From NCBI GenBank assembly GCA_021730285.1, contig CP082962.1:4411501-4475500 (forward strand): a stretch of 64,000 nucleotides of DNA, written 5' to 3'. This DNA is from Desulfovibrio sp. JY (GTDB taxonomy: Bacteria > Desulfobacterota > Desulfovibrionia > Desulfovibrionales > Desulfovibrionaceae). Below the pieces are notes generated by a model. It was not told the DNA's origin. It made no database searches and worked only from the letters and a program-made list of their open reading frames with translations. Shown here in pieces: positions 1 to 4,213 of this stretch (positions are counted from its first letter, which is position 1; every line of letters begins with the position of its first letter). The position numbers were made by a program, and so were the translations under genes.

Positions 1-589
1 GCTTGGGGCGGCTCAAGGCGAATTGCCATACGAAGTCGGCCTCGGTGGTGCCGTTGAGGTGCATATGCAGTTCGACAAGCCCCTCCCGGACGGCAAGGTC
101 TTCCAAAAACGCGTTTTGCCCAGGGGGCAAAGTGGCATGAGAGAACGTCTGTAGCAGCATCTGTTCCCAGGTCGCGTATTCGCCGTCCCAGCGGGCACGA
201 GGCCTCACTGTGTCGCTGGCAGCCTGAGAGACTCCAAATTGCAGCCAAGCGGCCACGCTGGCCAAAACTACTGGGGACATTGTCGTCAGCAAATTTTGCC
301 AGTCAGCGAGACGCTCCTCGCGGACATACAGCTTGTCCCCACGAAACCTGAGATGGCCCTCGGCCAAATTCTGCAGACTGACGCGCACGGCCTGCCCTAC
401 GGAAGGGACATCATCCAGGGCAGCTTGCAAGCGATGCCTAATGGCGTGATCAGGCTGCCGTGTCTCAATGCGGCGTTCCGCCAGCAAGACACTGGTCTTA
501 AACGCATCCAGGCGAGAGAATACATTCCGAAGGTAGATCGCCAGAATGTATTGATCAGTCAAGAAAATGCGATGAATACGTTCCGGCAT
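1..589 (-). CDS. rdrB: RdrB-like adenosine deaminase, N-terminal part (cut by window edge)
   Basis: An open frame starts at the ATG 589-587 and has no stop before the left edge (196 codons seen). Residues 172-180 read LVELHMHLNG, the metal-binding H-x-H of the adenosine/AMP deaminase superfamily (H175, H177 here), preceded by about 170 residues without a recognised fold. In RADAR systems RdrB is a large divergent adenosine deaminase with a long N-terminal part, encoded directly after the ATPase RdrA; together they deaminate adenosine or ATP during phage infection. The ATG lies two bases after the stop of the upstream ATPase gene, so the two are very probably co-translated. The rdrB name is inferred from the motif plus the partner; most of the catalytic domain lies outside the window. 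Confidence 0.72.
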   Translation of the reverse strand, partial: MPERIHRIFLTDQYILAIYLRNVFSRLDAFKTSVLLAERRIETRQPDHAIRHRLQAALDDVPSVGQAVRVSLQNLAEGHLRFRGDKLYVREERLADWQNLLTTMSPVVLASVAAWLQFGVSQAASDTVRPRARWDGEYATWEQMLLQTFSHATLPPGQNAFLEDLAVREGLVELHMHLNGTTEADFVWQFALSRPK

Positions 590-591
590 GG

Positions 592-3500
592 CTACGCAGG
601 AAGCTGATTGGGTTCTCGATTCATCTTAGGAAGAATGATGCTAGCGAAATTCGGAAGCAACTGTTTCACAAACCGGGAAGATGTGGGCTTAAGCCTGCTA
701 CTAGGATAATACAATTTTTCCAAAGGCATCCATAAATCATATATTTTATACTTATCGACCTCCGACTCAATGCCCTTTACGTCGAGTATTTTCGCGTATG
801 CACATATGTCTGTGCTATAGTCCTTCAACATCTTTTTGTATGTGTCAGACCAAGAATTTTCCTCAAAGTAACTCAATTGCGCAGTAGATGGCCCGGCATA
901 TGAGTATGACAAGATACCCCCCCTCATAGTTGTATCTGACAAACCATCTCCCTCAACCGCACGACCACACATCATGTTCAAAGGCTTGTACATATTAATA
1001 GATCGGCATCTATCTTTCGACGAGTCCGCATAAACAACTTCAAGAGACTTGATGCATTTAACGTATGGTAGCTTTCCACCACAGCACTGACTTGAATGGA
1101 TAATGTGTTGATTAAAAACATTGTAAGTATATCCATGCATGATTTTAGTGGGAGCCCGCAAAAACAGCCCCCACAGGGGACAACTAAAAAGCATTCTAAA
1201 CAACCTAAAATCCTCTGAGTATTCAGTTGTGCCCTCTCTTATTTCCTCATTCTGCTCTTGCTCATAGGGATCTTCATTTTCGTCATAAGCAATGTCACAA
1301 GTAATTATGGGATCTTCCGACTCAAATTCAAAAGGCTTAGCCAAACCAAGCACGGCAAGATTTCGGGAAAAAATTCGATCAGAAGTAACTGGATTAGCCA
1401 GAGTCACACGCTCGGTCCCGGTGTCAACGCCCAGATGAAGATATTCCTCAACTAGCACGGCATTAAAAAAAGCAATTATACATCTATGCAGATATCGGCC
1501 AACAGGCGCTTTATCTATCGGGATGGCATTGTCGATGGACACTAGGGTGTAACAAAATCGAGTCATCGCCTTGGACCAAACTGCGACTGGCACCGGTCGC
1601 ACCTGCTTTTTCCAATAGTTACCCCACAAAACTAAGTTCTTAATGAAATTTTCTGCCTCCTCGGCATATCCCATATCATAAAATATATCATCAACATCTT
1701 CTGCGACGATTGCACTAAGCGTTTGTTTTATTCTTGCCGATTTCTCTCCAGAAACTGGAGCGAAACCGAATACAGGATAAGATCGCAGCTGAGCCATATC
1801 TTCTATTTTATTACGAAATACCTTCACTTGTTCGTCAAACGACAAAGGTCCTGAACCACCAAGCGACAACAACTCAACCACTGCACCTATAATACTAAAT
1901 ATAGACACAAAAGTAAATTCACCACCGGAAGCAACAACCTTAGAGAATGGCAATCTTGCGTATTTTTTTTGCCATGATTTTATATAGTTCCTATAAGAAG
2001 AAGTACCTAGCGTCCCAAACTTCATCTTTTTCGCTGAACTATCACTTGGATTTTGTTGAATGTAACTGACGGAAAATCGAGCCACTTTAAGACTGTTAGC
2101 AATATCGGTCAGTCCGACATGCTTGACGTACTCCAGGACATCATCCTTGCCGCTCCAGCTCATCAACTCCTTAGTAAGGCTTACCTTCAGCATATATTCC
2201 AACCACAAAGCTGGATTGCTGGTCATCGCTTCTGCCCAGCAAGCTCCGAGAGCCAGCATGGCGTCGTTGGCCGCCTGTTCCGTAAACTCAGGAAGCAGAC
2301 GAACTCCATGCTGAAACATACCATGCTTATGTAAATTCGTGATCAGGTCGCCAAACGATTGGGCTGAACCGATGCCTTGAATCTGATGAGTGGTAAAGCC
2401 AAGACGATGCAACGGGACATAGAAAATCTTTGCCAGTCCGGCATGAAAGGACTTCCTGGCAGGACTGGCCACCTTGGCTGGACTGATACCCTCGGCTGGG
2501 CCTAGCTTATCACCTCCCTTGGCGGCATCCGGCTTCACTTCCCATGAATCATCCGCAATCGAGCTATAGCACCTAAGAATCTCCACAACCGTACGAGCGG
2601 GATGGTCGGCAAGTACTCTGGCATAAACTTCAACTTCCGCTGACGAGCGATAGAACAGGCACTCTTTGACAATATATTTCAACACCATCAAGACATCTAT
2701 GGCGACCTCTTTAGGGCCAACACTCTTGTTAACAAGAATACTTGTATCGACTCCACGCAGGTATTCTCCAAAGTTCAAGATATCTACCATGTTGCTTGGT
2801 TTAGCAACTTTCATAAGATACTGTCCGGTCAATTGATCTACTATACCTATGAGCTCATTTTCTCTCTCAGTATTACGGACATCATCCTTAGAATACTTTA
2901 GATTCAAATCAAATTGCTTCATCTGCTCTTTACGAACTACTGTTTCGTAAAGTCCAATATCTCCTGAAAGGAGCACAATCAACTCAGGTGTCGTCAAGTA
3001 TTTTCTGATAACTTCAAGCACTTTCCACCCAGAGTCTATACGAGTATCAATATCATCAAACACTAGAACAAATACATCTCTTCCTATTAATGCCAAGCTA
3101 TCATGTATAATATTACGAAAATCGCGTTCAAAATCACGTCCATGCTTGGCCTTGCTGATGCCCTCATGCAGCAGGAACTGCTCGTCCTCCCAAGAAACAT
3201 CGGGGTTTTTCCCATTTCCGTTGTCGAATTCACCGACAACCTGCAGTCCCTTGGCCAGTCTGCGTAACTTTTCCTGCCATGACTCGTACCGTTGGTCGGA
3301 ATGTTCCTCTAAAGAGGAGCAACGCTTCTTTCTGTGATCATCGACGGCCTGATAAATTCGCTGCAGAATTGTCAGCAACACCACTTCCCTGTCCCCCAGA
3401 AACGTGGGATCTATGACATCCAAGCAGTGAAAATTCTCCTTGGGAGCTAAGCCGTAATCACCTTTGGGCAAGAGTCCCTTGACCCCCTCGCTGTCTAATA

Positions 3501-3762
3501 TTTTTAAAACACTAAGCACGAACGTAGATTTCCCCACACCTCGCTGCCCGTTGATGGTGATCACGTCGTGAGTGCGTACAGGGAGCCCCTTGTTATTACT
3601 ATTAAGTGCTCTGACGTAATCTTCGCGGCGCTTTAGGATGTCGCCAATAAGCCGGGCAATGGTGCGCAGGGCCGGCTGATGAATAAGCTCTTCGGCTTTT
3701 AGGGCATTGGCTTCTCTGGATTGGGCAAGATCGATGACGACTTCACCATTTGCGCTGGACAT
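592..3762 (-). CDS. rdrA: RdrA-like P-loop ATPase (1056 aa)
   Basis: Large soluble ATPase. Walker A is GQRGVGKST at residues 72-80, Walker B FVLVFDDID at 231-239, followed by a strand LIVLLSGD (261-268) typical of KAP/STAND-like NTPases; a segment LDVIDPT precedes Walker B. The remaining 750 residues show no domain I recognise. RADAR RdrA proteins have this layout: N-terminal ATPase and a long C-terminal region that assembles with RdrB. The start ATG at 3762 has AGGAGC at 3768-3773. The gene is clearly AT-richer than everything to the right of the tRNA and uses many A/T-ending codons, which suggests horizontal acquisition. Alternative reading: a generic defence ATPase of another system; the deaminase-like partner downstream argues for RADAR. 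Confidence 0.75.
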   Translation of the reverse strand: MSSANGEVVIDLAQSREANALKAEELIHQPALRTIARLIGDILKRREDYVRALNSNNKGLPVRTHDVITINGQRGVGKSTFVLSVLKILDSEGVKGLLPKGDYGLAPKENFHCLDVIDPTFLGDREVVLLTILQRIYQAVDDHRKKRCSSLEEHSDQRYESWQEKLRRLAKGLQVVGEFDNGNGKNPDVSWEDEQFLLHEGISKAKHGRDFERDFRNIIHDSLALIGRDVFVLVFDDIDTRIDSGWKVLEVIRKYLTTPELIVLLSGDIGLYETVVRKEQMKQFDLNLKYSKDDVRNTERENELIGIVDQLTGQYLMKVAKPSNMVDILNFGEYLRGVDTSILVNKSVGPKEVAIDVLMVLKYIVKECLFYRSSAEVEVYARVLADHPARTVVEILRCYSSIADDSWEVKPDAAKGGDKLGPAEGISPAKVASPARKSFHAGLAKIFYVPLHRLGFTTHQIQGIGSAQSFGDLITNLHKHGMFQHGVRLLPEFTEQAANDAMLALGACWAEAMTSNPALWLEYMLKVSLTKELMSWSGKDDVLEYVKHVGLTDIANSLKVARFSVSYIQQNPSDSSAKKMKFGTLGTSSYRNYIKSWQKKYARLPFSKVVASGGEFTFVSIFSIIGAVVELLSLGGSGPLSFDEQVKVFRNKIEDMAQLRSYPVFGFAPVSGEKSARIKQTLSAIVAEDVDDIFYDMGYAEEAENFIKNLVLWGNYWKKQVRPVPVAVWSKAMTRFCYTLVSIDNAIPIDKAPVGRYLHRCIIAFFNAVLVEEYLHLGVDTGTERVTLANPVTSDRIFSRNLAVLGLAKPFEFESEDPIITCDIAYDENEDPYEQEQNEEIREGTTEYSEDFRLFRMLFSCPLWGLFLRAPTKIMHGYTYNVFNQHIIHSSQCCGGKLPYVKCIKSLEVVYADSSKDRCRSINMYKPLNMMCGRAVEGDGLSDTTMRGGILSYSYAGPSTAQLSYFEENSWSDTYKKMLKDYSTDICAYAKILDVKGIESEVDKYKIYDLWMPLEKLYYPSSRLKPTSSRFVKQLLPNFASIILPKMNREPNQLPA

Positions 3763-3951
3763 GAGGGGCTCCTGAAGTTGAACAGGCTATTTCGGCAACC
3801 AGTTTATCGCCCAAACGAAACAATTCAAAGAGAAATTTATCAGTCGATATATGGGCAAAAGAACCACCAACAGTACCCGCAAATTCTGCAGAAGCACTAT
3901 CCTCTTTCCCAAAAGGATGGACAGGAGATGGACAGAATCTCCCCCAAACGC
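3763..3951 (-). other. leader region of the ATPase gene
   Basis: About 190 AT-rich bases between the tRNA terminator and the ATPase start. They must hold the promoter of the two-gene operon unless it lies further upstream, but I find no convincing -35/-10 pair. Short open frames here on both strands overlap the terminator or the tRNA and lack ribosome binding sites. Confidence 0.4.
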
Positions 3952-3984
3952 AAAAAGGGTTGGACCCATTCAGTCCAACCCCTT
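3952..3984 (-). terminator. rho-independent terminator of tRNA-Arg
   Basis: Read on the minus strand: stem AAGGGGTTGGAC / GTCCAACCCTT with one bulged base, 7-nt loop, then five T (3956-3952). It begins 8 bases after the CCA end of the tRNA. Confidence 0.85.
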
Positions 3985-3991
3985 GAAATTA

Positions 3992-4068
<77 letters not shown>

Positions 4069-4213
4069 AGGGCAAGCGCATGAAACGATGTTCATGCAGC
4101 TTTCAGCTTGACCCGGACACGGGCCTGTCGCCACCAGCTAACATGGCGAAATTCAAAACTTATCTTTTCTGACCAATTCTTGCGAAGGCCGCTGTTTCGC
4201 GCCTCGGCACCAA

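Follow-up and report, generated by a model that had tools for sequence, protein, structure and literature searches.

At the left edge of a 64,000-bp stretch of the Desulfovibrio sp. JY chromosome (contig CP082962.1, bases 4411501-4475500 of a one-contig genome of 4,686,982 bases; hereafter the window) lie two genes, rdrA and rdrB, which we assign to the anti-phage system RADAR. A first-pass annotation, made from the window's letters alone, had described two adjacent genes 2 bp apart, a P-loop ATPase of 1056 amino acids (aa) and a protein with a deaminase motif, and had proposed RADAR in a Desulfovibrio-like genome. The open reading frames (ORFs) and the host genome agree with this description. 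Both genes are intact and adjacent on one strand, with rdrB downstream of rdrA across a 2-bp gap (positions 590-591). The window edge only cuts the view of rdrB, which runs past it to G000:C1:4409570 and encodes 839 aa with zero internal stops. The genome shares its family with Desulfovibrio sp. A2, Halodesulfovibrio sp. and Candidatus Desulfovibrio gallistercoris.

The rdrA-rdrB pair and its products

The H-x-H motif LHMHLNG, already noticed in the first-pass annotation, occupies residues 174-180 of RdrB, with H175 and H177. That annotation had allowed for a second gene lacking the remainder of the active site; beyond the window edge the remainder is present (YHVGED, RIGHG and SDDPG). RdrB has a histidine tetrad (H175, H177, H546, H578), a catalytic Glu (E549) and an Asp pair (D784, D785), and the first five of these residues in order of sequence, H175, H177, H546, E549 and H578, align with H152, H154, H498, E501 and H530, which are named as catalytic in Escherichia coli RdrB (PMC9994260). 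All seven deaminase residues are kept in 95 of 101 aligned RdrB rows, duplicate records included. Of the six exceptions, three (L072, L075, L126) are truncated by the end of the locus, one (L106) is a short ORF, and two (L053, L107) have N at D785, the second residue of the Asp pair, so that the activity of these two is perhaps altered.

The fragment of RdrB inside the window gave weak matches when searched alone (E-values of 0.0021 for NCBIfam and 0.03 for PADLOC). The whole protein matched the RdrB models of NCBIfam (1.1e-40) and PADLOC (9.3e-33), as well as the Pfam family A_deaminase above its cut-off. Its match to the solved E. coli RdrB 8fnw reached 3.3e-71, covering residues 340-831 and, weakly, 161-204, with residues 1-160 unaligned, whereas the best ordinary adenosine deaminase chain in the Protein Data Bank (PDB) gave 3.4e-6; homology to known RdrB therefore goes beyond that to ordinary adenosine deaminases.

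RdrA contains the P-loop GQRGVGKS (residues 72-79) and the Walker B motif FDDIDT (235-240), and combines the Walker A (G77, K78, S79), Walker B (D236, D237), sensor 1 (D268) and sensor 2 (R390) residues of the AAA+ protein of RADAR. These align with G81, K82, T83, D221, D222, D253 and R377, residues named for E. coli RdrA (PMC9994260). The protein matched the RdrA models of NCBIfam (3e-37) and PADLOC (2.2e-23), and the solved RdrA structures 8hr7 (4.5e-35, residues 60-806) and 8fnt (residues 5-806). In the libraries searched, RADAR was the best match for both proteins; a better match to another system was the second outcome that the first-pass annotation had named as refuting its proposal.

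A monomer of RdrA was modelled with AlphaFold2 from 55 RdrA sequences (that of the window and 54 picked from related loci), with a predicted local distance difference test score of 75.1 and a predicted template modelling (TM) score of 0.75. Four helices are predicted in the crown region (125-226), at residues 125-148, 157-178, 194-209 and 211-226, and the C-terminal part is mostly helical, so that both the four-helix crown and the alpha-helical C-terminal lobe of RADAR are found in the predicted structure. All 20 Foldseek matches of this model in the PDB at E<=0.001 are RdrA: 19 chains of 8hr7, 8hr8, 8hra, 8hrb, 8fnt and 8fnw, plus the Streptococcus suis chain 8fnu_A at 1.2e-8. The best match, 8hr8_A, had an E-value of 1.2e-29 and TM scores of 0.74 by target and 0.60 by query over 1002 columns, with a root-mean-square deviation of 7.8. 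Along most of the protein the model resembles the ring subunit of E. coli RADAR.

The association of the two genes is also common among their relatives. When one genome per species was scanned with an RdrB alignment, 437 of the 498 pattern matches were relatives, and the best 80 were kept and examined. In 75 of the best 80 loci rdrB has an RdrA-like ORF, a fragment in a few cases, directly beside it in the same orientation, with a median gap of -1 bp; in the remaining five either RdrB lies at a contig end (L075, L086, L107) or the upstream 1.8 kb (L092) and 9.8 kb (L105) hold no RdrA match. This pairing, the RdrA fold recovered by Foldseek, the location on a mobile element with restriction genes and the distance between the 8fnw match and that of the best ordinary deaminase chain make it extremely improbable that the locus is a housekeeping adenosine deaminase beside an unrelated P-loop ATPase with no role in defence, even though Pfam by itself would permit such a reading, since it gives only A_deaminase above the cut-off, with AAA_16 below it. 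Sequence matches, predicted RdrA fold and gene order all agree with the RADAR identity first proposed, and we consider it very likely that the two genes make up a complete anti-phage system, a RADAR of the broad E. coli branch, carried as cargo by an element of about 22.3 kb.

Table 1. Positions of the RADAR genes and of the features around them
Feature	Position in window	Strand	Remarks
rdrA	592..3762	-	1056-aa AAA+ ATPase ORF, ATG start
rdrB, first 196 codons in window	1..589	-	ATG start at 589; adenosine deaminase
rdrB, whole gene		-	L002 5571-8090; G000:C1:4409570-4412089 (P0001)
ORF upstream of rdrA	3721-4083	+	TTG start
Terminator-like hairpin with T run, after tRNA-Arg	3954..3984	-	consensus match
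53-bp direct repeat	3989..4041		4415489-4415541; covers 3' half of tRNA-Arg; one element end
53-bp direct repeat, second exact copy			G000:C1:4393210-4393262
tRNA-Arg(CCT)	3992..4068	-	element's integration target, 230 bp upstream of rdrA

Placement within the RADAR family

Some points weigh against this identification. Both proteins miss the NCBIfam cut-offs, RdrA with 128.5 of 600 bits (NF041743) and RdrB with 140 of 800 bits (NF041744), and the RdrA tail, from about residue 934 to 1056, is poorly predicted by AlphaFold2. The E. coli crown residues K150, E151 and R162 correspond to Y159, E160 and K171 here, E151 alone being identical. A promoter-like site for rdrA was looked for on the minus strand upstream of the gene and none was found.

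The missed cut-offs lose much of their weight when other members of the branch are considered. E. coli W284 (L127) can stand for the solved system, since the match of its RdrB to 8fnw extends across 799 of 799 residues (1653 bits); its RdrA matches 8hr7 over residues 26-895 (1131 bits). This strain misses the same cut-offs with 129.8 (RdrA) and 116 (RdrB) bits. Four other RdrB proteins of the E. coli side gave 128-168 bits, so that all six scanned on this side (that of the window, L127, L039, L082, L052 and L103) lie below the cut-off, whereas Aliivibrio L038 passes both, with 780.6 and 969.6 bits, and PADLOC scores follow the same pattern. These scores indicate that the NCBIfam RdrA and RdrB models do not cover the E. 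coli branch. Because W284 scores alike, the missed cut-offs were rejected as evidence for a divergent subtype.

RdrB trees were built with FastTree from 93 rows and with IQ-TREE (quick mode) from 37 rows (34 hand-picked plus L129-L131); duplicates or near-duplicates (L044, L071, L077, L116, L121) and RdrB ORFs shorter than 640 aa (L075, L106, L126) had been left out before the first. The RdrB of the window groups with the E. coli side in both trees, with a split support of 99 each time. The opposite side holds Aliivibrio L038 (annotated rdrB), L027, L028 and L125 in either tree, joined in the IQ-TREE one by L129, L130 and L131; for the four rows that it has there, FastTree gave a warning that long branches meet. 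The sequence divergence seen in the first-pass annotation is real, as the RdrB of the window forms a long branch with a best identity of 37-38% in the tree sets, yet it lies on the E. coli side. There L021, L024 and L081 group with it at 90-92, the fork being open and the neighbours within the side poorly resolved. The trees also contain a third RdrB group (L028, L125, L130), in which L028 comes from the same genus as the window and Aureibacter L130 has a SLATT-domain gene after rdrB. A Cetobacterium plasmid pair annotated as hypothetical (L131 844-6572) has a very long RdrB branch (3.24) and an unsure place in the tree.

The other arguments for a subtype concerned length and accessory genes. 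In a survey of 89 complete RdrA-like ORFs longer than 700 aa, with mechanically assigned starts and including other RADAR types and a few duplicates, lengths ranged from 770 to 1161 aa (median 932), reaching at least 1000 aa in 20 and at least 1056 aa in 4, the window's own counted. The ATPase is thus long, as first stated, but inside the range of its relatives, and its length was rejected as support for a divergent subtype. The absence of RdrC and RdrD, pointed out in the first-pass annotation, does not hint at a subtype either, as the two E. coli loci viewed also lack an annotated SLATT gene. Here the neighbours of rdrAB are tRNA-Arg and hsdR, and no SLATT accessory, which we take RdrC to be, lies beside the pair. 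A phmmer search with two SLATT proteins (E<=0.01) among the ORFs of 102 loci returned just one of the probes itself, a search that other SLATT families or accessories would escape. Upstream of rdrA, no likely accessory gene was found among the listed ORFs of at least 80 aa, since the only one (Table 1) has TTG as its start codon and shares bases with the start of rdrA as well as with the tRNA gene. As judged from its sequence, the pair is a distant member of known RADAR on the E. coli side, and none of the tests made points to a new subtype.

The solved E. coli RADAR (RdrA 947 aa, RdrB 799 aa; 8fnt, 8fnv, 8fnw, 8hr7-8hrc) shares with the present pair the gene order, the AAA+ and deaminase motifs, a similar predicted RdrA fold, the side of the RdrB tree and, in L127 (where the M gene is broken) and L128, the two loci viewed, type I restriction-modification (R-M) neighbours. 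Identity to it is about 28% for RdrB and 22% for RdrA, values measured on L041, a Pantoea copy with rdrB DNA 89-95% identical to that of the four E. coli copies. It differs in that the RdrA of the window is about 110 aa longer, in the crown residues K150 and R162, and in that the pair described here lies in a relaxase-bearing element at tRNA-Arg. The NCBIfam equivalog type, to which Aliivibrio L038 belongs and which we take Citrobacter rodentium to represent, has the same two-gene architecture and active sites, but the window pair scores far below its cut-offs and is separated from it in the RdrB trees with a support of 99. The S. suis system (RdrA 907 aa, 8fnu) is much more distant, with 48.5 bits against 618 for E. 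coli RdrA in profile A2, although the RdrA fold is still detectable by Foldseek (1.2e-8).

It is conceivable that the pair is RADAR by descent but has changed its trigger, the long RdrA lobe and tail sensing something else, or that RdrB has changed its nucleotide preference. In the two Walker regions the mean identity of the window RdrA to its relatives (alignment A3, 52-54 of 54 rows) is 0.38 and 0.49, against 0.17 and 0.23 in the C-terminal lobe and 0.13 in the tail; the segment after P862 has 194 aa against a median of 116, being as long or longer in only 4 of 54 relatives; and rdrB is a long branch. However, every catalytic residue is kept, and RADAR is as a rule poorly conserved outside the ATPase site (PMC9994260), so that this does not single out the RdrA of the window. 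Such a change is therefore unlikely. The crown substitutions may be read as one sign of specific change in this RdrA, as charge swaps at K150, E151 and R162 of the E. coli crown reduced or ablated defence (PMC9994260); these columns are variable throughout the RdrA family.

The integrative element and its gene content

The repeat that covers half of the tRNA-Arg gene has an exact second copy 127 bp before a tyrosine integrase frame (Table 1). Between the repeats are found the integrase, a MobA/MobL relaxase with helicase, TraD-like, ParA-like and DUF6753 proteins, an Mrr-type nuclease, hsdM (486 aa), hsdS, hsdR, rdrB and rdrA; three further scanned ORFs of the element had no Pfam match. GC content is 0.45 in rdrA, 0.56 in rdrB and 0.60 in hsdR, compared with 0.64 in the rest of the window. 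The exact 53-bp tRNA repeat, the integrase, the relaxase and the lower GC argue for the mobility of the element, and from these features RADAR appears to be cargo of an integrative element of about 22.3 kb inserted at tRNA-Arg(CCT) in a Desulfovibrionaceae chromosome. The GC steps from rdrA through rdrB to hsdR occur within one run of genes (592-3762; L002 2776-8090), which may mean that rdrA and rdrB have separate histories or that rdrA has changed fast. HsdS (L002 931-2775, minus strand) has a C-terminal helix-turn-helix domain (HTH_3, residues 559-612), which is unusual on a specificity subunit.

RADAR genes do decay in this family. One decayed-looking locus, L026 (7365-10571), has RdrA in three frames with an intact rdrB alongside, and another, L020 (7059-8861), has a 600-aa RdrA and no RdrB detected within 19 kb. 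A system decaying in an old element and no longer working is nevertheless very unlikely here, as both frames are open, the catalytic residues are in place, the junction is of 2 bp, and the attachment repeats are identical over 53 bp, suggesting a recent insertion.

Integrases 81-85% identical to that of the element occur in six of 13 other genomes of the genus, and the surrounding region was viewed in four of these six; in all four the integrase was the sole match to the proteins of the element (E<=1e-10, ORFs of at least 110 aa, 20 kb). Genome G266 has a sister element (L133, G266:C7:128300-148290) at the same tRNA-Arg(CCT)-tRNA-Gln locus, with an integrase 82% identical and a 20-nt repeat match at both ends, in which no other protein of the element described here was matched. 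Since only the integrase is common to the regions compared, and the site is the same in G266, the tRNA-Arg site looks like a hot spot where cargo is swapped, RADAR being one load.

The genes rdrA, rdrB, hsdR, hsdS, hsdM and mrr lie on one strand, and the gap between rdrB and hsdR is 17 bp if hsdR uses an inner ATG, so that a common transcript from rdrA to mrr is possible. A further step would be to see in this run a single transcription unit in which restriction and RADAR are coupled layers, RADAR firing, for example, when restriction fails or is blocked; we hold this to be distinctly unlikely. As a regular partner of RADAR, type I R-M was a weak candidate: an M gene with S or R was present in 5 of 42 genome loci of at least 20 kb and, beyond these, in the present locus, L022 and both E. 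coli loci, counted by similarity to its own or E. coli subunits (E<=1e-8) with no background rate. Adjacency to a tRNA gene was likewise rejected as a habit of RADAR, since of 96 loci the present one alone has a tRNA gene no more than 2 kb from the start of rdrA. Transcription of rdrA from the tRNA promoter is made less likely by the terminator-like hairpin, itself a consensus match (2 such hairpins were found in the region, with 0.9 +- 1.2 expected).

Distribution and proposed mode of action

A whole-genome search detected RdrA in 11 of 288 members of the family, the present genome counted. Nine belong to the E. coli side, eight of them as placed by the RdrB tree and G207 as judged from its RdrA score alone, and the remaining two, G200 (L027) and G264 (L028), go with the Aliivibrio type and the third group, respectively. 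With NF041744, 7 of 395 genomes of a phylum sample matched, including the present one, none above the cut-off; the ten other RdrA-bearing family genomes were not among these seven and may not have been drawn. An rdrB like that of Pantoea L041 was present in 4 of 5426 complete E. coli genomes, and a pattern scan of genome contigs with RdrA alone gave 6 matches with zero relatives.

Viral contigs gave 5 relative loci among 55 pattern matches. In one of them (L122 6487-11771, IMGVR_UViG_2846084083_000005) an E. coli-type rdrAB is flanked by RecT-like/exonuclease genes on one side and by a CI-like repressor on the other, O-like and DnaB-like replication genes follow at some distance, and the surroundings look like a lambdoid prophage; the RdrB of L123 and L124 are closely similar. 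Another viral contig (L126 6116-10393) carries a far more distant RdrA/RdrB-like pair, with RdrB cut by the locus end and a Hoc-like head decoration gene upstream, and is possibly a case of RADAR on a phage.

In E. coli, heptamers of RdrA dock on a dodecamer of RdrB, and (d)ATP is converted to (d)ITP upon phage infection (PMC9994260). By analogy, RdrA of Desulfovibrio sp. JY would assemble into a heptamer and dock, through its helical crown, on a shell made of an RdrB dodecamer. Phage infection would then lead RdrA, with the C-terminal lobe as a possible sensor and with ATP hydrolysis, to activate RdrB, and the conversion of ATP and dATP to ITP and dITP would poison the nucleotide pool and stop phage replication. 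We infer assembly, trigger and chemistry from kinship and conserved residues. Even for E. coli, where both enzymes are needed, the trigger is given as still unknown and sensing as an open matter in the published work (PMC9994260). The titles of PDB entries 8hra and 8hrb mention an 'RNA-loading state', which gives the substrate question another side.

A literature search joining RADAR and Desulfovibrio defence found no paper in the one library covered, and a listing in a supplementary table elsewhere is possible. The published count is 270 RADAR systems in about 38,000 genomes (PMC9994260); the 437 RdrB relatives found in this work come from different genome sets and criteria and hence give no rate. 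The present analysis would place a complete RADAR system in a Desulfovibrionaceae genome, aboard a mobile element. It also indicates that the E. coli-type branch occurs widely but falls below the NCBIfam cut-offs now in use. Moreover, with its long lobe and intact ATPase core, this RdrA may be useful material for asking what RADAR senses.

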